From contig QFXH01000005.1 of NCBI GenBank assembly GCA_003402345.1, positions 62,001 through 126,000 of the forward strand: a DNA stretch of 64,000 bases. The letters run 5' to 3'. This document shows positions 3,902 to 55,317 of this stretch, one piece after another (within the stretch, counting starts at the first letter, position 1; every line of letters begins with the position of its first letter). Under the pieces are notes generated by a model. The model did no database searches and was not told where the DNA came from. It saw only the letters and a program-made list of their open reading frames with translations. Source of the stretch: Candidatus Nitrotoga sp. MKT. Its GTDB lineage: Bacteria; Pseudomonadota; Gammaproteobacteria; Burkholderiales; Gallionellaceae. The position numbers were made by a program, and so were the translations under genes.

Positions 3902-4651
3902 TCAAACCAACCGCTGCATTGTAGCAACTGCCAGGCACAGATCGTCCCATGCTTTGGCTTTGTTCAGCGGGGTGTGTAGCAGATCGGTTGGATGGTAAGT
4001 AATGATGAGTGGAATATCTTTCACCAAGCCAGAAGAGGGTGAACCGCGGTAGTCGTGCAACTTGCCACGCAGGTCAGGCAAGGCGGCGTCATACCCCAAT
4101 AAGAAAGCGGCGGTTTCACCTAGAGCCACGATCAGCTTGGGCTGGATGAGTTGAATCTGGCGCTCCAGATAGGGCATGCATTGGGCAATCTCATTGGCTT
4201 CTGGCATGCGATTGCCGGGTGGGTAGCATTTAACGATGTTGGTAATGTAAACATTGTGGCCGCGCTTCAACTTAATTGCAGCCAGCATATTATCGAGCAA
4301 CTTGCCGGATTGCCCCACGAACGGCTCACCTTGAACATCTTCGTCCGCGTCCGGCCATTCGCCCACGAACAACCAGTCGGCCTGAACATCACCCATACCA
4401 AAAACCGTCTGTGTACAACCCGCACGCAGTTTGCACGCCGTGCAATTTTTCACCAATGTTTTTAATTCAGGCCAGTTGCAACTGGCTAGCTTTTGTAAGC
4501 CTGCTTTTTCCATTACAGACTGACTTGTCTCTTGCTCTATTATAGGTTGAGCCGCCGCAGCTTCTTGATCATATACAGGCTTGGTTTGTGCGCGTTGTTG
4601 CCACAACGGATAGAGATTGAGCTCACGTAATATTGCTTCTTCTCGATTCAC
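3902..4651 (-). CDS. type-4 uracil-DNA glycosylase, Fe-S
   Basis: A 249-residue family-4 UDG (the group once annotated as SPO1 polymerase-related), which removes uracil from DNA. Four cysteines suitable for a 4Fe-4S cluster are visible: CTACKL and, about 90 residues later, VKCYPPGN and AQCMPYL. The N-terminal ~85 residues form a poorly conserved extension common in beta-proteobacterial copies. The motif that usually reads GEAPG/GEGPG followed by an acidic pair is GEWPDADED here, and the second motif, usually HPAYLL-like, reads HPTDLL, so the active site is not textbook. GTG start; it overlaps rimI by 4 bp (GTGA), so it is the last gene of a tsaB-rimI-udg operon. Confidence 0.85.
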   Translation of the reverse strand: MNREEAILRELNLYPLWQQRAQTKPVYDQEAAAAQPIIEQETSQSVMEKAGLQKLASCNWPELKTLVKNCTACKLRAGCTQTVFGMGDVQADWLFVGEWPDADEDVQGEPFVGQSGKLLDNMLAAIKLKRGHNVYITNIVKCYPPGNRMPEANEIAQCMPYLERQIQLIQPKLIVALGETAAFLLGYDAALPDLRGKLHDYRGSPSSGLVKDIPLIITYHPTDLLHTPLNKAKAWDDLCLAVATMQRLV

Positions 4652-5112
4652 AGTAAATATTCCATCACGATTGCGTCTTCGCGCCCAATGTCTGCCGCAT
4701 AATAGCCACGGCGCAGGCCAATTTCGCGAAACCCGACACCACGATATAGTCCCAGCGCCGCCACGTTGGAAGGACGCACTTCCAGTAACATGCGCCGCAT
4801 GTTACTGGCGCGCGCAATTTTTATTGTTGCGTCCAATAGCCAACCGCCCAAGCCCTTGCGTTGATATTCGGCGGCGATGCCGATATTGAGCAAGTGCGCT
4901 TCATCTAATGCAGGCATGAACACAACATAACCTAATATTTCACCCTCTGCTTCGCACACCTTGCACACATAATTACTATTAAGCGCATCGGTAAAATTCC
5001 CGCAAGTCCACGGACAAGCATGCACGCGTCGCTCAATGCATACTATTCCTGCCAAGTCTGCTGGATTCATATCGCGCAAGACGGTGTGGTGGCGCAATTG
5101 GGACAAACTCAT
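4648..5112 (-). CDS. rimI: ribosomal protein alanine N-acetyltransferase
   Basis: A 154-residue GNAT acetyltransferase that in E. coli acetylates the N-terminal alanine of ribosomal protein S18. The acetyl-CoA loop is AAEYQRKGLGGWLLDATI, followed by LLEVRPSNVAALGLYRGVGF, the RimI signature, and it ends in EDAIVMEYLL. It is translationally coupled on both sides: its ATG overlaps the tsaB stop (ATGA) and its TGA overlaps the udg GTG. The tsaB-rimI adjacency is widespread in Proteobacteria and supports the call. Confidence 0.9.
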   Translation of the reverse strand: MSLSQLRHHTVLRDMNPADLAGIVCIERRVHACPWTCGNFTDALNSNYVCKVCEAEGEILGYVVFMPALDEAHLLNIGIAAEYQRKGLGGWLLDATIKIARASNMRRMLLEVRPSNVAALGLYRGVGFREIGLRRGYYAADIGREDAIVMEYLL

Positions 5113-5780
5113 CGTTCGCTGGTTTTCAGCGCCACTTTGTCGCGTAAATAAAACGGCATGGCTTGCGCCGCGTCCATGCCTTGACCGGCGGCAAATAATG
5201 GCGCGGCCAATTTTGCAATAGCACTGGCCTGTGGCACGGCCTGTGTATCGCTACCAATAATTTGCCCGGCATAGCGATCACCCAATACAGCACCATACAT
5301 GGCAAAGCCACTGCCTGTACCAAACCATCCAGAGCCTTGAACCTGCGGAGCTTGTTGCGGCAAACACAAATTCGGCTCGCAAACCGTCACCCATGACCCT
5401 GCCCGTTTTTCATATACAGCATGATAAATCTCACCCATGCGCGCATCCAGTGCGGCGATCACTTTATCGTGGCCGGCGGCTTGCGCTAATGCTTGCAGCG
5501 TACACACCCCCACCACTGGCAAATCCGCTCCCAACGCCAATCCTTGCGTTACCCCGCAAGCGATGCGTACACCGGTGAATGAACCCGGCCCGGTGCCAAA
5601 TGCAATGCCATCCAATTCCGAAATTTTAACGCCTGCTTCATGCAATAAATTATCCAGTATTCCTATCAACAATTCAGAATGGCGCTGCCCGACCAGCTCG
5701 CAATGGTTGATAACATTGCCATCCTGCCATAGTGCGACGGAGCAGTATTCAGTAGATGTTTCCAGCGCCAATATACGCAT
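5109..5780 (-). CDS. tsaB: tRNA t6A biosynthesis protein TsaB
   Basis: An ASKHA-fold partner of TsaD and TsaE in making N6-threonylcarbamoyladenosine at position 37 of ANN-decoding tRNAs. The N-terminus MRILALETSTEYCSVAL and the GIAFGTGPGSFTGVRIACG segment are diagnostic. The start at 5780 (MRILALETS) is chosen by family alignment; the frame stays open to an ATG at 5801 without a ribosome site. It is 223 residues long. The Sua5-type enzyme (7188-8213) and TsaE (15769-16260) of the same pathway lie in the window, while TsaD does not. It is the first gene of the tsaB-rimI-udg unit. Confidence 0.92.
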   Translation of the reverse strand: MRILALETSTEYCSVALWQDGNVINHCELVGQRHSELLIGILDNLLHEAGVKISELDGIAFGTGPGSFTGVRIACGVTQGLALGADLPVVGVCTLQALAQAAGHDKVIAALDARMGEIYHAVYEKRAGSWVTVCEPNLCLPQQAPQVQGSGWFGTGSGFAMYGAVLGDRYAGQIIGSDTQAVPQASAIAKLAAPLFAAGQGMDAAQAMPFYLRDKVALKTSER

Positions 5781-5872: not shown

Positions 5873-6343
5873 TCAGACTAACAACAGCGCGACAGCTTGC
5901 GCCGCGATACCTTCCCCGCGCCCGCTAAAGCCCAGCCGTTCAGTGGTGGTCGCTTTCACATTTACAGCATTCACCGCTACGCCCAAATCAGCGGCAATAT
6001 TTTCTACCATGCGCGGAATGTGCGGTGCCATCTTGGGTGCTTGTGCAATGATAGTGGCATCCAAATTGCCTATGCGGAAACCCGCATTGGTCACCATACG
6101 TGCTACTTCGCGCAATAAAATGCGGCTATCAATATTTTTAAACTTGGTATCGGTATCTGAAAAGTGACGCCCGATATCACCCAGTGCTGCTGCACCCAGC
6201 AGGGCATCACAGATGGCGTGCAGCAACACGTCAGCATCAGAATGGCCGAGCAGCCCCTTGTCATGGAGTATTTCCACGCCACCAATAATTAACTTGCGTC
6301 CCTCGACCAATTGATGAACGTCAAAACCCTGTCCGATTCTCAT
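5873..6343 (-). CDS. ispF: 2-C-methyl-D-erythritol 2,4-cyclodiphosphate synthase
   Basis: A non-mevalonate isoprenoid pathway enzyme that forms MEcPP. It is a 156-residue trimeric zinc enzyme. The N-terminus [12 protein letters not shown] supplies the metal ligands Asp8 and His10, and [19 protein letters not shown] supplies the metal-binding histidine and the hydrophobic pocket. The C-terminus has the conserved [20 protein letters not shown]. It starts 2 bp after the ispD stop, so the two form one operon, as is usual. Length and motifs are complete. Confidence 0.96.
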
Positions 6344-6345
6344 AT

Positions 6346-7026
6346 TTATTTTCTTTGGGCTAACAACAATTCCGCTAACTCAATATCCTGCGGGTAAGTG
6401 ACCTTAAAATTGCTGTAACTGCTTGTTACGAGCTTGGGATGAAACCCCAGCGCCTCGACTGCGGAGGCGTCATCCGTTACATTTGGGGCGGTTTGTAGCG
6501 CTTGTAGTAATAGTCCAGTGCGAAACATTTGCGGCGTCTGTGCCTGCCATACTCCCTCACGATTTTCGGTATGCACAATCCGGCATTCAGCATCGGCACG
6601 CTTCAAAGTATCTGCTACCGGCACAGCAAGAATGCCGCCAACCTCGTCGTCGCGCAATACTTCAATCAAGCGTGCAAGCTGCTTGTGGCTTAAACAAGGC
6701 CGGGCAGCATCATGCACCAGTAGCCAGTCATCAAGTTCAAGTTCCGCAGCCATTAATCCATTCAGTACGCTTTCCGCGCGCGTTGCGCCACCACAAAATA
6801 GCGGCTGCAGCTTATCCCCGAATAACGACCAGTCATAACTATGCCAGTACATGTCATTAGGTGCGAGCACCACGAAGACAGTGCTGATATCCGGGTTGGC
6901 ACACAAAGTTACAAGTGCGTGATAAACCATCGGCTGTCCGGCAATTGGCACGTATTGTTTGGGTAACCCACTGCCCATGCGAGAGCCACAGCCAGCGGCG
7001 GGAACGAGTGCGAAAATTTCGGGCAT
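6346..7026 (-). CDS. ispD: 2-C-methyl-D-erythritol 4-phosphate cytidylyltransferase
   Basis: Transfers CMP to MEP in the non-mevalonate pathway. 226 residues. The nucleotide-binding N-terminus is [20 protein letters not shown], including the conserved arginine and lysine; VHDAARPCL is the second signature, and [15 protein letters not shown] closes the fold. It precedes ispF with a 2-bp gap. About 160 AT-rich bases separate it from the upstream Sua5-type gene and presumably hold the promoter. Confidence 0.95.
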
Positions 7027-7187: not shown

Positions 7188-8213
7188 TTATTTTTTATTA
7201 GACGTACCCTGGGCGGCGCGCCGCATCCGGTCATTAATTGCAACCCATTCTTGCTTTGCTGGGGGGGCTTCTGCCAAAATATGATCGAAGCTGGCGTGAT
7301 CAATACGGTGCAGTGTCGCATAAAGTTCGCGTCCATATTCATCGGCCAATAGTGGCATCTGAAGTCTCGTGATTCCAGCGATATGGCTTACATCGCTATT
7401 TTCACTCAAATTAAGAACCGCTACTTTATGGCCCAATTTAGCCAGTTGATACACCCGATCCCACAATTCATCTGCCGGATAGATCTCAATTGGAGTTGTT
7501 GGAGCATAGTGTGAGTCCAACATGCCGGGAGCCCGCAGCAGCTTGGAAGTGACTGATTGAGCCAGTGATACTTTTTGATTAAGCGTGTATTCAATTGCTT
7601 CAACGGGAAGCCCGCCAGGCCGCAATAACGTAGCTTCTCCGTGCGTTAAGCTAATGATGGTGGACTCCACACCGATACGGCATGGCCCCCCATCAAGAAT
7701 CATACCTACTTTGGATCCCAGTTTGTCATGCACGTGTTGCGCTGTGGTTGGACTTACCTGTCCAAAACGATTGGCCGATGGTGCTGCAATTCCGCCGCCG
7801 AATACACGCAGCAGGGCGGTTGCAACGGGATGGTCAGGTACACGCAGACCTACCGTATCTTGCCCGCCGGTGACCTCATTCGGCACTTGGCTGGACCGTT
7901 GCAGGATTAAGGTCAGCGGCCCTGGCCAGAATGCTTCTGCCAGTCGCCATGCGGCGTCGGGAATTTCCCGTGCCCAAGTGGATAGTTGGGAGGCTGCGGC
8001 AATATGAACGATCAGCGGATGATAGTCTGGTCGATTTTTGATTTCAAAAATCTTTCGCACGGCAAGTGGATTCGAGGCATCCGCCCCCAATCCGTAAACA
8101 GTCTCAGTGGGAAAAACCACAGTCTCGCCTGCCCGCAGTAATGCCGTGGCAGCTTGTATTTCGTCATCCGGAACCGTATAGGGATTCACCGCAGTGTCTT
8201 GTTTTCTTTTCAA
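7188..8213 (-). CDS. L-threonylcarbamoyladenylate synthase, Sua5 type
   Basis: Makes threonylcarbamoyl-AMP from threonine, bicarbonate and ATP, the first step of t6A tRNA modification. At 341 residues it is the long Sua5 form: an N-terminal YrdC domain (residues ~17-205; PTETVYGLGADA, KNRPDYHPLIVHI, DTVGLRVPDHP, APSANRFGQVSPT) plus a linker (APGMLDSHYAPTTP) and a C-terminal Sua5 domain. The apparent start is TTG overlapping the psiE stop by 4 bp; a GTG eight codons inside is an alternative. It belongs to the same pathway as tsaB and tsaE in this window. Confidence 0.9.
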   Translation of the reverse strand: MKRKQDTAVNPYTVPDDEIQAATALLRAGETVVFPTETVYGLGADASNPLAVRKIFEIKNRPDYHPLIVHIAAASQLSTWAREIPDAAWRLAEAFWPGPLTLILQRSSQVPNEVTGGQDTVGLRVPDHPVATALLRVFGGGIAAPSANRFGQVSPTTAQHVHDKLGSKVGMILDGGPCRIGVESTIISLTHGEATLLRPGGLPVEAIEYTLNQKVSLAQSVTSKLLRAPGMLDSHYAPTTPIEIYPADELWDRVYQLAKLGHKVAVLNLSENSDVSHIAGITRLQMPLLADEYGRELYATLHRIDHASFDHILAEAPPAKQEWVAINDRMRRAAQGTSNKK

Positions 8214-29288: not shown

Positions 29289-31166
29289 ATGAAACAAACC
29301 ATCGCAGTTAACGTGCCGGATATTGGTGACTTTAAGGATGTAGCTATTATCGAGGTGCTAGTAAAAATAGGCGAGGCCGTAACAGCAGAGCAATCGCTGA
29401 TCACATTGGAAACCGACAAGGCGACTGTGGACGTGCCTTCCCCCGTTGCGGGGGTGGTGAAGGAATTAAAGATCAAGATTGGTGACAAGGTCAACCAAGG
29501 CGACTTGATTTTAATGTTGGAAGCAGAATCGGCAGCGGAAGTATCCGCTTCCTCGTCTGTTCAATCCACTTCTGTCGCTGCTATCCCTCATTTTTCAGAG
29601 GAAAGGTCAACTCCCCCATCGGATAAAGAAAAAAAGGAAGAAAGAATGGAGGCAGGAGAAAGTTCATCTATGCCACAAGGCACTTCGGCTTTATCTTTTA
29701 CGCCTGAATTTGCCATCCCAACCGCCCCCTCATTTGAAAAAGGTGACCTCCATGCCGAAGTAGTCGTTTTGGGTGCCGGCCCCGGCGGTTATACTGCGGC
29801 TTTCCGTGCTGCTGATCTGGGCAAACAGGTAATACTGATTGAACGCCACTCCAAACTCGGGGGTGTGTGTCTTAATGTAGGCTGCATTCCATCGAAGGCG
29901 CTGCTACATGTCGCCAAGACTATCACCGAGGCCGATGAAATTTCGCATCATGGAGTCACGTTTAGCAAACCGACGATTGACATTAATAAAATCCGTAGCT
30001 GGAAGGAAAGCATTATTGCCAAGCTAACCGGCGGCTTAGTTGTATTATCCAAACAACGCAAAGTGAACGTAGTTTACGGTGTGGCGAAATTCAATTCGCC
30101 TAACAGCATCATGGTGGAAACCAGCGACGGTAGTAAGACCATCACGTTTGATAACGCCATCATTGCAGCAGGCTCCAGCGTAACGCGTATACCCGGCTTT
30201 CCGTATGATGATCCACGTTTGATTGATTCTACTGGTGCATTGCTGCTACAGGACATCCCTGAGCGTATGTTAATTATTGGCGGAGGCATCATCGGCTTGG
30301 AGATGGGCACGGTATATGACGCGCTGGGCTCCAAAATTTCTGTGGTCGAATTGGCCGATAGCCTAATTCCTGGCGCTGACCGTGATCTTGTACGTCTGTT
30401 GCACAAGCGCATCGAAAAACGTTACGAAGCAATTTATTTGAAGACCAGGGTTACCAAAATTGAGGCAAGGACGGAAGGGTTGAATATAACCTTTGAAGGT
30501 GACAATGCACCACAACCGCAACTATATGACCGTGTGCTGCTCGCCGTAGGGCGTCGTCCAAACGGACACGAAATTAACGCGGAAGCGGCAGGTGTGGCGG
30601 TCAATGAACGCGGTTTTATCCCGGTTGATAAACAACAGCGCAGCAATGTGCCACATATCTATGCTATCGGCGATATTGTTGGCGATCCCATGCTGGCACA
30701 CAAGGCAACGCATGAAGGCAAAGTGGCTGCGGAAGTGATTGCCGGACATAAAGCCAGCTTTGATGCGCTCACCATTCCGTCTGTGGCTTATACCGATCCG
30801 GAAATTTCTTGGATGGGTCTGACCGAAACACAAGCTAAAGCACAGGGCATACCCTATGAGAAAGCAGCTTTTCCATGGGCGGCAAGTGGCCGTGCACTGT
30901 CAATGGGGCGCGAAGAAGGACTCACCAAGCTGTTATATGATCCGCAAACCAAGCGTATTCTCGGTGCAGGCATTGTGGGCAGCAATGCGGGTGAATTGAT
31001 CGCCGAAACAGTACTTGCGCTGGAAATGGGTGCCGACATGGGGGACATCGGTCTGACTATCCACCCACACCCCACACTGTCGGAAACTGTCGGCTTCGCA
31101 GCGGAAATTGCCGAAGGCAGCATTACCGACCTATACCTGCCCCGGAAAAAACCAGGACGCATCTAA
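29289..31166 (+). CDS. lpdA: dihydrolipoyl dehydrogenase with N-terminal lipoyl domain
   Basis: The E3 subunit of 2-oxoacid dehydrogenase complexes, 625 residues. Residues 1-78 form a lipoyl domain with the lipoylated lysine at 44 (ETDKATVD). A flexible Ser/Glu/Lys linker runs to ~150, followed by the FAD/NAD flavoenzyme. The redox disulfide is Cys194 and Cys199 ([13 protein letters not shown]); [10 protein letters not shown] binds NAD, and HPHPTLSE carries the catalytic base. Such lipoyl-E3 fusions usually follow aceE-aceF; neither is adjacent here. The last codons and TAA stop fall inside a repeat related to the MITE family of this window (31155-31182), so the native C-terminus may have been altered. 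Confidence 0.94.
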
Positions 31167-31182
31167 AAATTTAGAGGCATCC
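31155..31182. repeat. palindromic MITE-end remnant over the lpdA stop
   Basis: A 28-bp near-palindrome: GGACGCATCTAAA (31155-31167), AA, TTTAGAGGCATCC (31170-31182). The left arm matches the right terminal repeat of the MITE copy at 60461-60635 (GGACGCCTCTAAAAATTC, read on the minus strand) at 16 of 18 positions. It covers the last lpdA codons and its stop, and may now serve as a transcription stop. Confidence 0.6.
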
Positions 31183-31255
31183 ATTAGAATCATTACTACG
31201 CTTGTTGCCAGTGCCTCGATTAACCGCACAATGCGGAATCACGATACAAAGAGGT

Positions 31256-32770
31256 TTACCGTCTACCGCCTAAAATCGAACCAAGTACACCACGAATAAT
31301 TTGCCGCCCAACTGTTGAACCAATGGCACGGGCGGCACTCTTGGCAAACGCTTCACCGACACCTTCACGGCTTCTTGATGTGCTGCCGCCAAAGATGCTT
31401 CCTAATATTCCGCCCAACCCACCACCACTACTTGTCCCCTCTTGTTGTGTGGAATCAATAGCCTCTGTTGTTGTGCCTTCTGCGGATTTATTGCTGGTGC
31501 GCTCCTTGATGCGTTCGTAAGCTGATTCGCGATCCACCACTTTTTCATAGTGACCGACAAGCAGTGAGTCTTGAATAATGGCTTTGCGTTCCGCTTCATT
31601 AATGGGGCCGATTTGAGCTTGTGGCGGAATAATCAGTGCACGTTCAACAATACTCGGGCGACCTTTTTCATCCAGACATGAAACAAGTGCTTCGCCTACA
31701 CCCAGCGCAGTTATAACAGCTTCTTCATCCAGGCCAGGATTGTCATGCATAGTTTCAGCCGCTGCTTTCACAGCCTTTTGGTCACGTGGACTAAAGGCGC
31801 GTAACGCATGTTGCACGCGGTTGCCGAGCTGGCCCAGCACCTTGTCCGGTACATCAGCGGGATTTTGGGTGACAAAATATACACCTACGCCTTTGGAACG
31901 AATTAGGCGTACCACTTGTTCGATTTTATCGAGCAGCGCTTCAGGAGCATCGTTAAACAGTAAATGCGCTTCGTCGAAGAAAAACACCAACCTGGGCTTA
32001 ACAAGATCACCGGCTTCCGGTAGATTTTCGAATAATTCAGACAGTAACCACAACAGCATGGTGGAATATACTTTTGGCGAAGACATCAATTTATCGGCGG
32101 CCAGAATGTTAATCATGCCGTAGCCGTTAGCGTCGGTCTGCATTAGATCGGCAATATTGAGCATCGGTTCACCAAAAAAACTTTCGCCGCCTTGAGTTTC
32201 AATTTGCAGCAGGCCGCGCTGAATTGCCCCGATACTGGCGCTGGAGATGTTGCCGTATTCCGTCGTGAAATCTGCCGCATTTTCACCGACGTATTGCAGC
32301 ATCGCGCGTAGATCTTTCAAATCAAGCAATAATAATTCATTGTCATCGGCGACCTTGAACACTAGCGCCAGCACGCCCTGCTGCACTTCGTTCAAATTCA
32401 ACATGCGCCCGATGAGCAGCGGCCCCATGTCAGAAATAGTGGCACGCAACGGATGGCCCATAGTTCCGAATACATCCCAAAACGTTACTGGATAAGCACG
32501 ATGTACAAAATCTTCCAGGTTGAGTTGCGTAACTCTTTCGGTAACTTTTTGATTGTTGCCGCCAGCCTTGCTCAAACCGGATAGATCTCCCTTTATATCA
32601 GAAAGAAATACTGGCACACCAATGCGGCTGAAGGACTCCGCCAGTGTTTGCAAGGTGACAGTCTTACCCGTTCCTGTCGCACCTGTTATCAGTCCGTGGC
32701 GATTGGCCATTTGCGGCAGTAGAAAAAGTTCTTGCTTATTATTTTTAGCGATCAGTAGCGGTTCGCTCAT
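31256..32770 (-). CDS. HerA-like ATPase (DUF853 family)
   Basis: A 504-residue P-loop ATPase of the HerA/FtsK superfamily, DUF853 (YjgR-like). Walker A is [19 protein letters not shown], Walker B is [12 protein letters not shown], and the arginine-finger region is [16 protein letters not shown]. The C-terminal ~60 residues are low-complexity Gly/Ser ([14 protein letters not shown]) ending in a glycine-rich tail. Its role is unproven in this family; it is often called a putative helicase. Single gene, convergent with lpdA. Confidence 0.88.
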
Positions 32771-33028
32771 ATTGGCTCCGAGTTAATTTGGTAGCCTTGC
32801 ACAAAACGTAGCAGGCATGGTTGTATGAATGCACTAATTTAGATTAATTAAACGAAAAATGATAACGTGGGTTCAGTTTCATAATGTAGGAGAATTATGT
32901 ATCCTCACCAACACGTTTTTTACCACATTGCCATAATATACTCGATACCCAATCTGCGTGCTTCCCAAAGACTTTGCAATAGTGATATATCAATTTGCTA
33001 AATCAACTTTTACAGGATAAATATCATC

Positions 33029-33844
33029 ATGCCTCAACATAAAATCCAAAGCATTCTATTTGCCTTTGCCACACTTGCTGCTAGCCATGCCCATGCTATT
33101 GATTTTGGTGGCCTAATCAACAAAGAGCTTGGCAAGCTGGACAAATCTGCTCCACAAAAATCAGAACCTACAGCCACTAGCAACACACCAGCAATGACTG
33201 GAACTACAAAATCTACAACAAACCTGGCCAACTTTAGCGACAATGATCAGATTGATAGCTTGAAGCAAGCCCTTATTCAGGGTGCAGAAACTGCCGTTGG
33301 TAACCTTTCTAAAGAAAATGGTTACCTTGGCAACAACAAAGTGCGTATTCCATTGCCAGAAAATTTACAGAAAGCGGATGGCTTATTACGTAAATTTGGC
33401 ATGGGAAAGTATGCCGACGATTTGACTACTTCCATAAACCGAGCCGCCGAAACGGCAGCGCCTGAAGCAAAAGATTTATTAGTCGGCGCGGTCAATAAAA
33501 TGACCGTGGAAGACGCCAAAGGCATACTCACGGGCGGGAGCGATGCTGCTACGCAATATTTCCGCAAAAATACTGAAACGGCACTGGCCGGAAAATTTAA
33601 ACCTATCGTGGCAACTTCAATGCAAAAAGTGAAGCTCGCTGAAGCCTACGATCAGTTCGCTGAAAAGGGCGGGAAGTTTGGCTTGATAGACAAACGCGAT
33701 ACCAAAATGGATGACTACATTACCCGCAAGGCAATGGATGGCTTGTTTCTGATGATCGCCGAACAAGAAAAAGCGATTCGCGCAAATCCGCTTGAAGCAA
33801 CAGGCAATCTAGCAAAGAAGATTTTTTCGGCGATCAAATTTTAA
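33029..33844 (+). CDS. secreted DUF4197 protein
   Basis: 271 residues with a signal peptide (1-23, ending AHA). From about residue 65 it matches the DUF4197 pattern: LKQALIQGAETAVGNLSKENGYLGNNKVRIPLPENL, split as the helical ALIQGAETAV and the KVRIPLPE block, and later DYITRKAMDGLFLMIAEQE near the C-terminus. A periplasmic protein of unknown function. The region upstream (32771-33028) holds its promoter. Confidence 0.82.
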   Translation: MPQHKIQSILFAFATLAASHAHAIDFGGLINKELGKLDKSAPQKSEPTATSNTPAMTGTTKSTTNLANFSDNDQIDSLKQALIQGAETAVGNLSKENGYLGNNKVRIPLPENLQKADGLLRKFGMGKYADDLTTSINRAAETAAPEAKDLLVGAVNKMTVEDAKGILTGGSDAATQYFRKNTETALAGKFKPIVATSMQKVKLAEAYDQFAEKGGKFGLIDKRDTKMDDYITRKAMDGLFLMIAEQEKAIRANPLEATGNLAKKIFSAIKF

Positions 33845-33907
33845 CCGGTCGGCCATTCACTATTTAATGGGAAGGATGGGTTTGGAGAATCCACTGACTT
33901 TTTGAAC

Positions 33908-34306
33908 ATGACTGAATTTACCAGTCTGATATCACTTTTCATTAGCAGCTTCCTTGCCGCCACCTTGCTTCCCGGTGGCTCTGAAATTGTACTGATCGGT
34001 GTGCTGAAACTGTACCCGGAATTATTCTGGCCTGCACTTTTGCTCGGGACTCTCGGTAATACGCTGGGTGGCATGGTGTCATTTGGTATGGGTTGGTTGC
34101 TACCGCAAACCCATAAGCTCAAACATGTAGAAAAAATACAACACTACGGCACACCCGCATTATTGTTTGCCTGGGTTCCATTACTGGGTGATGCGCTATG
34201 TCTTGCTGCCGGATGGTTAAGGCTTAATCCATGGCAGGCTGCATTATTTATGGTAATCGGCAAATTCGCGCGTTATTGGGTAATTGCGGTCGCAACCCAA
34301 ATTTAA
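33908..34306 (+). CDS. YqaA-family membrane protein
   Basis: A 132-residue inner-membrane protein of the YqaA/DedA-like (SNARE-associated) family: LLPGGSEIVLIGVLKLYPE, LGTLGNTLGGMVSFGMGWLLP, then a cytoplasmic loop and VPLLGDALCLAAGWLRLNP. About four hydrophobic segments. The function is unknown, with DedA relatives linked to lipid flipping. The ATG at 33908 is used; a TTG two codons earlier is possible. Confidence 0.85.
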   Translation: MTEFTSLISLFISSFLAATLLPGGSEIVLIGVLKLYPELFWPALLLGTLGNTLGGMVSFGMGWLLPQTHKLKHVEKIQHYGTPALLFAWVPLLGDALCLAAGWLRLNPWQAALFMVIGKFARYWVIAVATQI

Positions 34307-34422
34307 ATTAAAGAGTCGCGCGGAACACTCACGGTTCAATTATTTCAACGTCGCTTCCTTATAGACGAGTTCACGAGTCTATAGCAAGAGATCATGAAGG
34401 TAATAAACGTAGGCTAAATTTA

Positions 34423-47644: not shown

Positions 47645-48979
47645 ATGCACATTCATATACTCGGTATCTGTGGCACCTTCATGGGCGGCATTGCAGTGCT
47701 GGCCAAGCAAGCAGGACATCGCGTCACCGGCTGCGACGCCAACGTTTACCCGCCGATGAGCACGCAACTTGAGGCGCAAGGCATAGAACTGATTGAAGGC
47801 TTCGGCCCGGAACAGATCACCCTTCAGCCGGACATTTTTGTTATCGGCAATGTGGTCTCGCGCGGAAATCCGCTGATGGAAGAAATCCTCAACCGCAACT
47901 TGCCTTACATCTCCGGCCCGCAGTGGCTGGCGCAAAATCTGCTGCAAAATAAATGGGTGCTGGCAGTCGCGGGCACCCATGGCAAAACCACCACCACTTC
48001 CATGCTGGCGTGGATACTGGAATACGCGGGCTTGAATCCGGGTTTTCTGATCGGCGGTGTGCCGCAGAATTTCGGACTCTCTGCACGTTTAACCGATGCG
48101 CCTTTCTTTGTCATCGAAGCGGATGAATATGACACCGCCTTCTTCGACAAGCGCTCCAAATTCATTCATTACCGTCCGCGTACCGTCATCCTCAACAATC
48201 TGGAGTTCGATCACGCTGATATCTTTGCCGACCTCGCCGCCATCGAAACGCAATTCCATCACCTGGTGCGCACTGTGCCCGGCAACGGGCTGATAATCAG
48301 CAACGGTCGTGCCGATTCATTGAAGCGCGTGATCAATCACGGCTGCTGGACACCTGTGGAATTATTTGCCTGTGCTGACGGCTGGAACATCGACGCAGAT
48401 AATCGCGTGATTTTTAATGGCGAGGCGCATGGTGAACTGAAATGGGAATTAATGGGCGAACACAACCGCTTGAACGCCCTCGCCGCCCTCGCCGCCGCGC
48501 GTCATGCCGGTGTGCCCGTAGCGCAAGGACTGGCGGCATTGAGCGAATTTAAAAACGTCAAACGGCGCATGGAAGTGCGCGGCGTGGTAAACGGTATCAC
48601 CGTGTATGACGACTTCGCGCATCACCCCACTGCGATTGCCACCACTGTGTCAGGGCTGCGCGCCAATGTAGGTAGCGCACGCATCCTGGCGGTGCTGGAG
48701 CCACGCTCCAATACCATGAAACTCGGCGTGATGAAGAACGCCCTGCCCGACAGTCTCAAGGATGCCGACATGGTATTTTGCTACGACCTCAACCTCGGTT
48801 GGGATGCTCGCGCGGCTCTCGCTCCGCTGGGAGATAGGGCTATCATAAAAGATAATCTGAACGAATTGATAGCAGCCATTGTTGCCGCCGCTCGCCACGG
48901 CGATAATATTCTAGTCATGAGCAACGGCGGATTTGGCGGGATACATGAGAAGTTGTTGCAGCGGTTAGCCGGTTTGTAG
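47645..48979 (+). CDS. mpl: murein tripeptide ligase
   Basis: UDP-N-acetylmuramate:L-alanyl-gamma-D-glutamyl-meso-diaminopimelate ligase, which recycles cell-wall tripeptide. 444 residues. N-terminal HILGICGTFMGGIAVLA (UDP-binding), ATP loop VAGTHGKTTTTSMLAWIL, EADEYDTAFFDKRSKF, and the C-terminal DDFAHHPTAIATTVSGLR typical of the Mur ligase family. It is co-directional with the DUF486 gene. Confidence 0.95.
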   Translation: MHIHILGICGTFMGGIAVLAKQAGHRVTGCDANVYPPMSTQLEAQGIELIEGFGPEQITLQPDIFVIGNVVSRGNPLMEEILNRNLPYISGPQWLAQNLLQNKWVLAVAGTHGKTTTTSMLAWILEYAGLNPGFLIGGVPQNFGLSARLTDAPFFVIEADEYDTAFFDKRSKFIHYRPRTVILNNLEFDHADIFADLAAIETQFHHLVRTVPGNGLIISNGRADSLKRVINHGCWTPVELFACADGWNIDADNRVIFNGEAHGELKWELMGEHNRLNALAALAAARHAGVPVAQGLAALSEFKNVKRRMEVRGVVNGITVYDDFAHHPTAIATTVSGLRANVGSARILAVLEPRSNTMKLGVMKNALPDSLKDADMVFCYDLNLGWDARAALAPLGDRAIIKDNLNELIAAIVAAARHGDNILVMSNGGFGGIHEKLLQRLAGL

Positions 48980-49001: not shown

Positions 49002-49165
49002 AGAGTTCGTCTAAATGATAAGTGCAGAAACAATCTCTGCCGCAAATGCTCGCAAATCTGGATCTTAGTTGTCGTCATTAAGTTTATAATTCTTGTCATG
49101 TTTATAAATAAACCCGATAAAATTTTTAGCGTTTTATTGGGGTCTATTTTACGTTAGGAGGAAAT

Positions 49166-49357
49166 GTGCAAAATTTCAAAGTATCGGCTTGGCCTGTAGA
49201 CCTCGCAAAAAAGAAATACGCACCTGAGTGGGAATTAGTCATTTCTGCGAATCTCCTTGGGGAAGCGATTGAACAAGGACGGGTTCTATTTCATGCTTAC
49301 TGCAAAGAGCACGAGCTTGTGTTTGAAGACTTTGAAGTTCGCTCGGGTACGCCTTGA
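49166..49357 (+). CDS. small hypothetical protein, putative cassette gene
   Basis: A 63-residue unrecognised protein (MQNFKVSAWPVDLAKKKYAP...) with GTG start and a strong AGGAGG four bases upstream. It has aromatic residues spread through it and no membrane segment. It lies in the segment that ends in the split attC at 49514, so it could be the gene of that cassette. The 3' half overlaps an open frame on the other strand (49239-49505), and at most one of the two may be real. Confidence 0.45.
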   Translation: MQNFKVSAWPVDLAKKKYAPEWELVISANLLGEAIEQGRVLFHAYCKEHELVFEDFEVRSGTP

Positions 49358-49513: not shown

Positions 49514-49617
49514 CCCTAACCCTACACTCTAGGCCGACCGCCCTACAGCGGTTTCGTTTTCGTTCAATGGATTCATTACGTTGTCTCCTCGTTCAGTGGT
49601 GGGCGGCGGCTTAGTTC
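49514..49617 (+). other. attC site, 5' part, interrupted by an IS
   Basis: The left portion of an integron attC: CCCTAAC (49514-49520; consensus RYYYAAC, with the first base off), the L'' box CTAGGCCGACCGCCC (49529-49543), a ~57-base variable region, and the complementary L' box GGGCGGCGGCTTAG (49601-49614). L'' carries one extra A relative to L' (GCCGA against GCCG), the extrahelical base typical of attC. The matching R' box GTTAGGC lies at 51101-51107, beyond the inserted IS. Confidence 0.65.
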
Positions 49618-49764
49618 TGCTACAAGGGCTTCCCCAAATTCGCAAGCGCTTCTGAAGTTTTTATCTCATTGTCATTCTCTGTTTCGTTTCGTGTCGCGCT
49701 GCTTGCATCGTGCGAGAAGGTGAAGGACTGCTAAACTACAAACGGTCATGTTGGGCTATTGCCC

Positions 49765-49856
49765 GGACCCTAATGAAAGACGCGCGCCGGGACCTCAATC
49801 GTTAGTCGGGTGTTACTTCTCCCCATGAGCTAATCAGGCTCTCCCGGCGCGGGTCC
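49765..49856 (-). ncRNA. candidate bridge (seek) RNA structure of the IS
   Basis: The ~345 bp between the transposase stop and the IS end are non-coding and strongly structured. GGACCC (49765-49770) and GCGCCGGGA (49784-49792) pair with TCCCGGCGC (49842-49850) and GGGTCC (49851-49856). This gives a two-part stem with a 13-base bulge and a ~49-base loop. In the IS1111 subgroup the guide RNA is encoded downstream of the transposase, as here. The limits given cover only the stem. Confidence 0.45.
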
Positions 49857-49964
49857 AACCCGCTTCACATCAACGCTGGCAGTGCATCGGTGATTCTTTA
49901 GTCGCCGCCCGGCGGCAGGTATATTTCTTTCAAGTTTTTTCTCTCTGGCAGACGGTTTTGATTT

Positions 49965-50990
49965 TCAATCTTTGATCAACCCCAGTTTAAAGTCTTCCCC
50001 GTACTTCAACACCGCCCACGCTAGCCGTGCATTTTTTGCCGCGATGGCGATCACCCCGCGCCAGTAGCCGCGCCGCTCCTGTAATGCTTGCGCCCAGCGA
50101 CTGAATCTATCCTGTTTATCGCCGATGCTATTGAGTACCGCACGCGCACCCATGACCAGCAGGCTGCGCAGGTAGTTATCTCCGGCCTTGGTGATGCGCC
50201 CGAGCCGTGCCTTGCCGCCGCTACTGTATTGGCCTGGCACAAGGCCGACCCATGCCGCCACCTGGCGTCCGTTATCGAAGTCATGACCTCCGCCTATACT
50301 GGCCAGCATGGCGCTGGCGGTGACCGGGCCGATGCCAGGGAGTTTCATCAGGCGTTTGCTGCGTTCATCGTCACGTGCGGCCTGGGCGATGGCGCGGTCG
50401 TATTCGGCGATTTTTGCGTCGAGCTCCGATGTGTGCGCCAAGAGATCGCCGACGCACAGGTTGGCATAACCCGGCAGGTTTTCCAGATGCACGCCGATCT
50501 CGCGGCGCAGACAGGTCACTTTCTGTGGCAGCACGATGCCGAACTCTGCGATCAATCCACGCAGGCGGTTGTAGCAGGCAGTGCGCTCTTCGACGAATCC
50601 TTGTCGGGTGCGGTGCAGGCACAGGATGATTTGCTGATGTTCTTCTTTGACCGGCACGAAAAGCATGGACGGGCGGGTGACAGCTTCGCAGATCGCGGCG
50701 GCGTCTGCCGCGTCGTTCTTGCCGCGCTTGCCGGTCATGCGGTAGGGCGCGACGAACTTTGGCGCCATCAGCTTGACGGCGTGACCGTACTGGCGAAATT
50801 GTCGCGCCCAGTGGTGTGCGCCGGAACACGCTTCCATTCCGATCAGGCACGGCGGCAGTTGTGCGATCAGCGGCAGCAGGTCTGCGCGTGAAACTTTCGG
50901 CTTGACCAGCACAGCCTGGCCGTTATCATCTACGCCGTGCACGGCAAAAACGTTCTTGGCGAGATCGATTCCTACGGTGATAATGCTCAT
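49965..50990 (-). CDS. IS1111-subgroup transposase (IS110 family)
   Basis: 341 residues. The N-terminal RuvC-like DEDD domain begins ITVGIDLAKNVFAVHGVD, with IGMEACSGAHHWAR and GKRGKNDAADAAAICEAV supplying the acidic residues. The C-terminal Transposase_20 domain contains LPGIGPVTASAMLASI, a helix-hairpin-helix, and the serine region GLVPGQYSSGGKARLGRITK. It ends in a typical KNARLAWAVLKYGEDF tail. It appears intact. The start at 50990 (MSIITVGID) has GGGGAAG upstream. Confidence 0.93.
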   Translation of the reverse strand: MSIITVGIDLAKNVFAVHGVDDNGQAVLVKPKVSRADLLPLIAQLPPCLIGMEACSGAHHWARQFRQYGHAVKLMAPKFVAPYRMTGKRGKNDAADAAAICEAVTRPSMLFVPVKEEHQQIILCLHRTRQGFVEERTACYNRLRGLIAEFGIVLPQKVTCLRREIGVHLENLPGYANLCVGDLLAHTSELDAKIAEYDRAIAQAARDDERSKRLMKLPGIGPVTASAMLASIGGGHDFDNGRQVAAWVGLVPGQYSSGGKARLGRITKAGDNYLRSLLVMGARAVLNSIGDKQDRFSRWAQALQERRGYWRGVIAIAAKNARLAWAVLKYGEDFKLGLIKD

Positions 50991-51100
50991 GGACTTCCCC
51001 TTTTGTGGTGTTGATGAAATGTCAGAAATTCCATCATGGCACTTGTTGCCGTTTGCGGAAACTTCTCCGCAGCCTCGGGACGGGGAAGTCCCTTTCATTC

Positions 51101-51107
51101 GTTAGGC
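51101..51107 (+). other. attC R' box after the IS (3' part of the split attC)
   Basis: GTTAGGC matches the attC core GTTRRRY exactly, directly after the IS right end and 19 bp before the TIR gene start. Joined to 49514-49617 it restores one attC, with the L'-to-R' spacing expected once the IS is removed. It marks the upstream border of the TIR cassette. Confidence 0.65.
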
Positions 51108-51125
51108 ATCTAAAGGGAAAGAACT

Positions 51126-52031
51126 GTGCCCGTTTTTATAAGCTATTCGCACTCAGACGAGCTAATTGTGAACAAGCTCGCCGCCCATCTAGTTCAAAAA
51201 AACGCAAATGTATGGGTGGATACTTGGGAATTGAGTGTCGGCGATTCAATTATTAATAAGGTCCAAGAGGCAATACAGGAATCAAGCGCCTTGCTTGTAG
51301 TGCTGTCAAAAGCATCTGTTCAATCTGAGTGGTGTAAAAAAGAGCTATCTGCTGGATTGATGCGCGAACTCGATGAAAAGAGAGTTGTGGTTTTACCTGT
51401 GTTGGTAGAAGACTGCGATATACCGTTATTCCTAAGAGAGAAGATGTACGCAGACTTTCGCACCAACTTCGACCGGGGGTTGCACAGCGTTTTAGACGCA
51501 ATTGCACAAATAACTAACTCTTACCAAGGGCGCCTACAGGAGGCGGAAGGGAATATCGATTGGTCGGAAGACTGGGGTTTCAACGAAGGGTTGTTTCACC
51601 TTCGTTTCACTATTATCAACAGCCCGACAACCCTTCCAATGACCTTCTTAACCCAGATATATGTTTTTTGTAATGAGGTTTCTACGAGTCGCTATAGGAA
51701 ATATCAAGAAGCGGGTCTTGATTGGATTGGCCGAGCAATGATCGCCGAAGCACTCTTCGATTTTGGGGAAAAAAAAGATTATAGGGTAATTCTAGATAGT
51801 CAGTTTCCTCAAGAGTTTAAAGCAACAATATTAGATCCAAGGACAGGTTCTGAGTATCACGTGGTGAGTGAGTCAAGAAAAATGGGGCAGGACAACGGAA
51901 AAGATCAATTGCTCAACATAAGTCACTACCTAAAGGGAATAAGGGAATACGTCCGCAGCGTCTCACGAAAACCAACACCTGAAGAACTCCAAAAAATTCA
52001 CAAGATTGTAGCGAGTCCGTGGAATGCTTAA
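51126..52031 (+). CDS. TIR-domain protein in a gene cassette
   Basis: 301 residues. Residues 1-~130 are a TIR domain: VFISYSHSDELIVNKLA, WVDTWELSVGDSI, ALLVVLSKASVQSEWCKKEL and VVVLPVLVEDC. Glu73 in the WCKKE motif is the residue that is catalytic in NAD-cleaving TIRs. Residues ~140-301 form an unrecognised domain that may sense a trigger. GTG start with AAAGGGAAAG upstream. The TAA stop lies within GCTTAAC, itself an attC-like box. The gene is bounded by attC boxes on both sides (51101, 52127-52184), so it is a mobile cassette. A defence (abortive infection) role is inferred, not shown. Confidence 0.85.
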   Translation: MPVFISYSHSDELIVNKLAAHLVQKNANVWVDTWELSVGDSIINKVQEAIQESSALLVVLSKASVQSEWCKKELSAGLMRELDEKRVVVLPVLVEDCDIPLFLREKMYADFRTNFDRGLHSVLDAIAQITNSYQGRLQEAEGNIDWSEDWGFNEGLFHLRFTIINSPTTLPMTFLTQIYVFCNEVSTSRYRKYQEAGLDWIGRAMIAEALFDFGEKKDYRVILDSQFPQEFKATILDPRTGSEYHVVSESRKMGQDNGKDQLLNISHYLKGIREYVRSVSRKPTPEELQKIHKIVASPWNA

Positions 52032-52126
52032 CAAAGTGCTCAACGTCGTGCCGGCTTGAAGTTCCTTCAGATGAATTGGTCTTCCCGCAGCGTGCACTGT
52101 GGGCCTTCGACTTCGAGCCAGGTGAG

Positions 52127-52184
52127 GCCTAACCTGTTGTTCCAGCCGACCGCCTTCGGCGGCGGCTGAACGCCAACGTTGGGC
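52127..52184 (+). other. canonical attC (59-base element) of the TIR cassette
   Basis: A 58-bp site with R'' GCCTAAC (52127-52133), L'' CCAGCCGACCGCC, loop TTCG, L' GGCGGCGGCTGAAC, and R' GTTGGGC (52178-52184). The arms pair with one unpaired A in L'' (GCCGA against GCCG), the hallmark extrahelical base. The spacing agrees closely with the aadA-type attC. An outer RYYYAAC box (GCTTAAC, 52026-52032) overlaps the TIR stop codon and could mark a longer alternative left border. Confidence 0.85.
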
Positions 52185-52234
52185 ATATTGCTTTTGAAAC
52201 AAACGCTACTCCAAACCCTCTCAAAGGAAACTTC

Positions 52235-52681
52235 ATGAAGACATACAAGAAATCCGATGCTGCCATCGCCAACTTGACACCGGAACAACGCCGCGTGACC
52301 CAGCACGGCGGCACGGAACATTCTGGGACGGGGGCGTATCTTCACAATCACGAACCGGGTATCTATGTGGATATCGTGTCGGGGGAACCGCTGTTTGCGT
52401 CGTCGGACAAGTTCGAGTCGGGTTGCGGTTGGCCCAGCTTCACCAAACCCATCGAACCCGCGTACATCAACGAACTGCGCGATACCAGCCACAGCATGAT
52501 CCGTACCGAAGTCCGCTCGGTTCACGGCGACAGCCATCTGGGGCATGTGTTCCCGGACGGCCCCCAGGATCGCGGTGGCTTGCGCTACTGCATCAATTCA
52601 GCCTCGCTACGCTTTATCCACCGGGATGACATGGAGGCGGAAGGCTACGGCGAATATCTTAACCAGGTGGAGGATAAGTAA
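52235..52681 (+). CDS. msrB: peptide methionine-R-sulfoxide reductase
   Basis: 148 residues; reduces methionine R-sulfoxide in proteins. Catalytic Cys119 is in [11 protein letters not shown], with ESGCGWPSF and [10 protein letters not shown] being family motifs. The two CxxC zinc motifs of many MsrBs are absent, so it is the zinc-free form. AAAGGAAA precedes the ATG. Its stop overlaps the msrA start (TAATG). It is the first gene after the attC site, but no attC follows it, so cassette status is unclear. Confidence 0.94.
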
Positions 52682-53247: not shown

Positions 53248-53294
53248 AGCGCGGTAGGTTGTGCTGAATGAAATGATGCCCAACTTCACGGGAG
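53248..53294 (+). repeat. REP-like palindrome, copy 1 (5' of RAYT remnant)
   Basis: The core GGTTGTGCTGAATG, then AAATGATGCCCAAC, forms a stem (GTTGTGCT against ATGCCCAAC). Nearly identical to the copy at 56076-56122 over about 45 bp. It lies immediately upstream of a RAYT N-terminal fragment, where REPs normally sit. Confidence 0.65.
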
Positions 53295-53520: not shown

Positions 53521-53537
53521 TTATGGTGAACGGTAAG

Positions 53538-53559
53538 ATGTTGGGCTTCATTTCATTAG
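53538..53559 (-). repeat. REP-like palindrome half, inverted copy (3' of RAYT remnant)
   Basis: ATGTTGGGCTTCATTTCATT is the reverse complement of the right half of the other copies (AATGAAATGAAGCCCAACAT). It closes the RAYT remnant on the 3' side in opposite orientation to copy 1. Confidence 0.6.
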
Positions 53560-55110: not shown

Positions 55111-55317
55111 GAGAAAAAATGGGGTCAATGGTTAAACAGGGGAGAAAATACGAAGTACGATAAAACGTTACACCACACGGGGGAGGATTGACGCTGCTGT
55201 CAGGCAGCAGTGTCGCTGACGTGTTGTGTGTTGAGTAGTGCGATTTGTAAAAAAATTGATTGCAATTTCAAGCGGGATGTTCAGCTCCCACACCCCAACA
55301 ACAGCCTAACAGGCACG

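Follow-up and report, generated by a model that had tools for sequence, protein, structure and literature searches.

An apparently stranded integron gene cassette encoding a TIR-domain protein in Candidatus Nitrotoga sp. MKT, with relatives in an integron and on phage contigs

A 64,000-nucleotide stretch of the Candidatus Nitrotoga sp. MKT genome (contig QFXH01000005.1, positions 62,001 to 126,000; hereafter the window) contains a gene for a TIR-domain protein, and sequence comparison gives good support to reading this gene as an integron gene cassette. The cassette status was assigned because the gene has an R' core and an attC beside it, an 80% identical homologue is separated from an integron integrase by a single attC, and the DNA homology between the two loci ends at the cores. 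The cassette is probably stranded, since the attC on its left was split by an insertion sequence (IS) and its own attC is truncated; the reading frame is intact. As a whole, the locus is best explained as a stranded, IS-flanked cassette encoding a single-gene anti-phage TIR effector with a C-terminal sensor, acting as an NADase, an account that we hold with somewhat better than even confidence. The principal features were as follows.

51126-52031, forward strand: TIR gene, GTG start, 301 residues; TIR domain at residues 3-120 and a C-terminal domain (about 134-301) of no assigned family.
51100-51107, forward strand: right-hand portion of the divided attC, including the R' core GTTAGGC at 51101-51107 as the 5' boundary of the TIR cassette; it abuts the IS, and DNA homology to the integron-borne homologue L017 begins at 51100.
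49514-49619, forward strand: left part of the same attC, belonging to the upstream cassette and cut by the IS; folds as an attC with 51100-51107.
49620-51099, reverse strand: IS1111/IS110-type insertion sequence, 1480 bp, with subterminal repeats AAGGGCTTCCCC / AAGGGACTTCCCC; delimited by the repeat unit in relatives and by border comparison.
49965-50990, reverse strand: DEDD transposase of the IS, 341 residues (PF02371, E 2.6e-27; PF01548, E 1.3e-14).
52026-52049, forward strand: what is left of the attC belonging to the TIR cassette itself, with R'' GCTTAAC (52026-52032) overlapping the stop codon, followed by a putative L'' start; the rest is gone.
52050-52126, forward strand: resident sequence of the chromosomal slot, aligned with sister species G006 and G016.
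52127-52184, forward strand: complete attC of 58 bp, a resident of the slot (covariance model R1, 41.6 bits, E 1.6e-8).

Contigs of 84,980 species were scanned with the TIR protein, which yielded 11 loci, four of them full-length or nearly so. At locus L017, in a metagenome-assembled genome of Salinisphaeraceae, the TIR homologue is 80% identical to the window protein and of the same length. One attC (5890-5985, 36.7 bits) separates it from an integron integrase on the same contig (393.6 bits, above the cut-off; about 4275-5207 by coordinates). Window positions 51100-52035 are homologous at the DNA level to L017 positions 5978-6910. This tract starts at the R' core and ends slightly beyond the R'' heptamer at the stop codon, where L017 carries GCCTAAC and the window GCTTAAC. 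Three further loci, L018 (62% identity), L019 (46%) and L020 (38%), have attC-like or repeat flanks by eye, with strong upstream fold z-scores in L020 (-4.9) and L019 (-2.9). No attC-like flanks were seen at L010 (genome G045, 32% identity). Among plasmids, 18 records were matched, with a query coverage of at most 48%. As a separate observation, two adjacent TIR-matching open reading frames (ORFs) of 453 and 271 residues were found beside an integron integrase at L142 (G001:C49, 9863-12188); the 271-residue ORF lies between two attC matches and by eye looks like two TIR-type domains.

To judge the left boundary, the core at 51101-51107 was read together with the IS that it abuts. About 125 GTTRRRY heptamers are expected by chance on both strands of 64 kb, and a lone heptamer is not evidence; this one is meaningful because it abuts an IS whose other copies are mostly found at cores of this kind and because the DNA at the other end of the IS completes an attC. 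When 49514-49619 was joined to 51100-51107, the 114 bases folded as an attC, with an outer core helix of 6 bp and an inner helix containing an extrahelical base. The IS belongs to the IS1111-attC group by its IS110/IS1111 transposase, its subterminal repeats and its insertion at an attC core. Its insertion divided an attC that belonged to an upstream cassette, leaving the two parts 1480 bp apart.

A search for this IS in 149 genomes gave some match in 43, the window genome included, and near-complete copies in G007 and G051 delimit the unit. Beyond the window copy, 20 matches covered the right border, and 17 of them were examined, including the short matches L058 (41 bases) and L059 (30 bases); GTT came next in 14 of the 17, and a full GTTRRRY in nine. 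The heptamer as a mere IS end was considered and rejected, for the adjoining letters vary among copies. Left borders gave 12 rows, one of them without flank, and the other 11 were read by eye as six attC arms, three attI-like sites and two unclear cases. Judged from their left flanks, the copies L045, L046 and L043 (in G030 and G007) appear to be seated in attI-like sites.

The right boundary was examined with R1, an attC covariance model built from 16 hand-chosen sites in integrase-adjacent arrays of relatives, with the window site excluded. Its training candidates came from a hand-made attC scan of 20 integrase loci, and six of its 14 base pairs show changes on both sides. The site at 52127-52184 was the sole R1 match in the window up to E 10; across the whole window genome, R1 gave 11 matches at E<=1, seven of them with E<1e-3 (150 of 607 candidates scored). 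The hand-made strict-core scan recovered the window site plus a few others amid chance-like rows, and a looser scan was noisy. An Rfam scan of the window at gathering thresholds gave no matches. With different cargo, the same attC is retained in sister species G006 (30.2 bits) and G016 (18.9 bits, E 0.022), as are about 75 bp preceding it. The site is therefore not the TIR gene's own. The cassette's own attC breaks off within about 25 bp of its start at the stop codon, and R1 gave no second match in the window that could stand for it.

An earlier note, made from the window sequence alone, had described the gene as bounded by an attC core box before its start and by a 58-bp attC after its stop. 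The cassette architecture stands, on the core, the attC and the L017 homology that reaches the cores. The boundaries as worded do not hold in detail: on the left the IS divides the attC, so that GTTAGGC is part of a divided site and not an intact flank, and the right attC, though real by the covariance model R1, is resident at the slot.

The TIR gene looks like one acquired by horizontal transfer, which now lies between mpl and msrB in an apparent remnant of an old chromosomal integron. The slot itself has the look of a relic integron that lacks an integrase, with an attI-like left edge, species-variable cargo and a terminal attC. Its other features were as follows.

47645-48979, forward strand: left chromosomal neighbour, which we take to be an mpl-like ligase gene; 94-97% identical in eight of ten other same-genus genomes.
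49131-49155, forward strand: attI-like site at the slot's left edge, whose core GTTAGGA lies at 49153-49159; flank conserved in sister species.
49166-49357, forward strand: 63-residue ORF without family match, a possible upstream-cassette gene and the only ORF of at least 60 residues assigned to that cassette.
52235-52681, forward strand: msrB, right chromosomal neighbour (PF01641, E 4.5e-47).

The left edge was scored with an attI weight matrix made from nine sites (9 of 20 integrase loci of relatives gave one), its pattern written and its training sites chosen with the slot already in view. The best match in the window was 49131-49155 (21.4 bits vs 12.9 for the next), and one match in 469,140 background positions scored higher than the slot site. 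The slot site was also the top match of its locus in G009 (14.5), G016 (10.4) and G003 (8.1), but not in G006. A 15-base piece of the window genome's own attI matches the left edge with one mismatch, where 0.04 matches are expected at two mismatches or fewer.

A search with the mpl protein matched 57 of 60 genomes of the family, and 30 loci were fetched. The same-genus genomes G009 and G003 align with the window up to 49157 and resume at 52198; G016 aligns up to 49066 and resumes at 52052, and G006, read from the msrB side, follows the same plan. The cargo between these edges varies, with a related ORF in G003 and G009 and different ORFs in G006 and G016. R1 found no attC match at the slot in G003, G009 or G010, where in G010 a contig end falls between mpl and msrB. 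By coordinates, mpl and msrB are about 2.1 kb apart in G007 and 4.2 kb in G008, with DNA 3' of mpl that does not match the window. No close msrB was found in G001 or G018 (best 51% and 49%).

No match to the integron integrase TIGR02249 was found in the window at E<=1e-3. An intact integron integrase of the window genome lies on contig C10 (472.7 bits), and integron integrases above the family cut-off were found in 65 of 120 genomes of the host's taxonomic family. Integrase-family fragments elsewhere in the window genome G000 (C15:28941-29093 and 29652; C5:200114-200266 and 201152; C9:111755-112258 and 112419) score 22-48 bits, far below the cut-off, and lie 0.2-0.9 kb from attC matches, as if further integrons of this genome had decayed; matches as weak as these were also found in 14 of 14 control genomes. 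A second msrB copy, 80% identical and with an internal stop codon, was noted at G000:C4:43871-44311. A palindrome-like repeat (GTTGGGCTTCATTTCATT...) surrounds small ORFs at window positions 53248-53287, 53522-53557 and near 55300, and also occurs 3' of mpl in G018.

The protein was characterized by profile and structure comparison. In the Pfam scan of the window ORFs, residues 3-120 matched TIR_2 (E 3.6e-30), and W69-C-K-K-E73 aligned with the W...E motif of AbTir, so that both the TIR fold and the aligned catalytic Glu of TIR NADases are present. The WCxxE motif pointed out in the earlier note was thus borne out, and its reading of the C-terminus as unrecognised held as well: for the C-terminal 172 residues, no PDB chain was matched by profile up to E 5, and none of the Pfam families reached its cut-off. 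This part is common to the 10 aligned members, among which G-x-D-x-G-x-D is invariant. Its fold was barely probed by structural alignment of the full model, because the listed matches all lie within residues 1-152, and a C-terminal model from one sequence was poor (mean pLDDT 50.3).

A scan of viral contigs gave five loci, L173-L177. L173 and L174 carry the same protein (64% identity), with a portal gene on one side and a Phage_GPA gene on the other, L175 (52%) is flanked by two phage methyltransferase genes, and L177 (45%) lies between the terminase subunits. L176 (46%) lies near DUF2971, SIR2_2 and DnaB genes, with repeats that carry attC-like cores (fold z-scores -2.6 and -1.9). L174 has core-like ends, GTTAGGT ahead of the start and TCCTAAC at the stop. 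No integron integrase above the cut-off was found at L173-L177. According to PMC9122126, P2 carries a defence hotspot between gpA and gpQ, where the TIR-containing AC1 locus protects; the P2-like portal-gpA pocket that holds L174 is this published hotspot. Phage GenBank records gave no match to the window protein, and three short, TIR-only matches when L174 was the query. In a tree of the 10 members, with two of seven inner branches well supported, phage and cassette contexts are intermixed. On the IMG/VR phage contig G572 (L176/L183), a run of genes at about 29683-34411 encodes DUF2971, SIR2_2, a 126-residue protein, TIR and a 229-residue protein, adjoins the DnaB gene and has attC-like repeats 3' of several genes; capsid and terminase genes were read elsewhere on the contig from ORFs alone.

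Several results weigh against the cassette and effector readings. R1 found no attC directly 3' of the L017 TIR gene, the next being at 7591-7668, and the fold z-score there is weak (-0.82). Up to E 1, R1 found none in L018, L019, L020 or L010, and none in L173-L177; fold z-scores are also weak in L018 (-1.0) and downstream of L019 (-0.93) and L174 (-1.83). The gene is rare, with three matches at E<=1e-20 among 369 genomes of the class, nearly full-length in the window genome alone, and among 199 relatives a further match over more than half of the protein in G045 alone. Position 73 is Glu in nine of 10 homologues and Asp in L010. The structure model of the TIR part is of low confidence (block means 51-80; alignment depth six sequences), and PADLOC and NCBIfam matches are restricted to the TIR part, the NCBIfam ones far below their cut-offs. 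For the slot, the window genome's own attI on C10 scores just 8.6 in the attI matrix.

The reading as a single-gene TIR effector was retained because of the TIR fold, the aligned Glu and the relatives in phage pockets. By association with these relatives, the protein probably serves in anti-phage defence, putatively by NAD+ cleavage with an abortive outcome. An attC-targeting IS inserted to the left of the TIR cassette and split the upstream attC; the gene may still be expressed in its present host. The C-terminal domain (residues 134-301) would sense infection or keep the protein inactive. Upon activation, the N-terminal TIR domains would cluster, and Glu73 would act to destroy NAD+ and stop the infected cell.

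The first alternative, a real cassette without present function in its host, appears unlikely, and it is compatible with the preferred explanation for the family as such. It is consistent with a locus that lacks an integrase, has a truncated own attC and an IS-split upstream attC, and occupies a slot whose resident attC scores low in G016 and gives no match in G003 and G009. Against it stands the intact frame of 301 codons, which shares 80% identity with an equally long homologue carried by an integron. We give slightly less credence to a Thoeris-like protein that makes a nucleotide messenger from NAD+, activating a separate effector without depleting NAD+ itself. ThsB_TIR does exceed its Pfam cut-off (34.1 vs 21.2 bits), and at L176 an SIR2_2 gene with a ThsA match over its SIR2 part lies two genes upstream of the TIR gene. 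However, TIR_2 scores far above ThsB_TIR, no such effector, ThsA included, was found among the five neighbouring window ORFs scanned (the scan did not extend to the remainder of the genome), and no SIR2 gene was found among the scanned neighbours of L174, L175 and L177 (those of L017-L020 were not scanned). An effector against eukaryotic hosts, a category that PMC11089894 suggests for cassette TIR proteins of plant microbiomes, is very improbable given relatives amid phage packaging, replication and methyltransferase genes. A TIR-STING protein of CBASS was rejected, as profile comparison with 11 STING domains gave a probability of 0.1%; among the 10 members, L174 alone showed a weak match, which stayed below the cut-off (E 0.0056 and 0.014).

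Beyond the single-gene effector at this locus, the family may form a distinct single-gene TIR lineage, marked by the C-terminal G-x-D-x-G-x-D, which moves as a portable anti-phage module from integron cassettes to accessory pockets of temperate phages and back; its members belong to Pseudomonadota and Bacteroidota. This proposal is tentative, and we rate it a little short of an even chance. Vibrio integrons are known as stores of defence genes. If the proposal is true, integrons would feed defence genes to phages and vice versa, relic integrons would retain them after integrase loss, and one gene family would join the cassette arrays of integrons with the hotspots of temperate phages, both known stores of bacterial immunity. 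It would also offer a small, testable TIR architecture with a C-terminal domain of no assigned family. The mpl-msrB slot would serve as a worked example in which the integrase was lost, the attI-like end and the terminal attC were kept, and the cargo differs by species.

The locus was compared with known systems. A TIR gene within a cassette is not a new idea, because PMC11089894 has in print integron cassettes with TIR-domain proteins, binned as putative plant-directed effectors, and reports in addition that elements of the IS1111 group occur in attC sites. The window gene is likewise a TIR-domain integron cassette; unlike those cassettes, it has phage-borne relatives that point to defence and lies in an integrase-less relic array. 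As with IS1111-attC elements in PMC11187229, the IS combines the transposase family, subterminal repeats, a long non-coding part 3' of the transposase gene and an attC target, whereas some copies here lie, by eye, in attI-like sites. Phage-genome attC sites and cassettes were described in PMC9892861, whose main text does not contain the word TIR; L176 seemingly represents the same arrangement of cassettes within a phage genome. With AbTir and BtTir, the window protein, a putative NADase, shares the TIR fold and the aligned W...E motif, whereas its accessory part differs. Like the single-gene TIR-NLR and AC1 of the P4/P2 hotspots (PMC9122126), the family places a TIR protein in a phage or satellite defence hotspot, as L174 does in the portal-gpA pocket; TIR-NLR includes STAND and TPR parts and AC1 comes with partner genes, whereas the window protein has just a short C-terminus of about 170 residues, of no assigned family.
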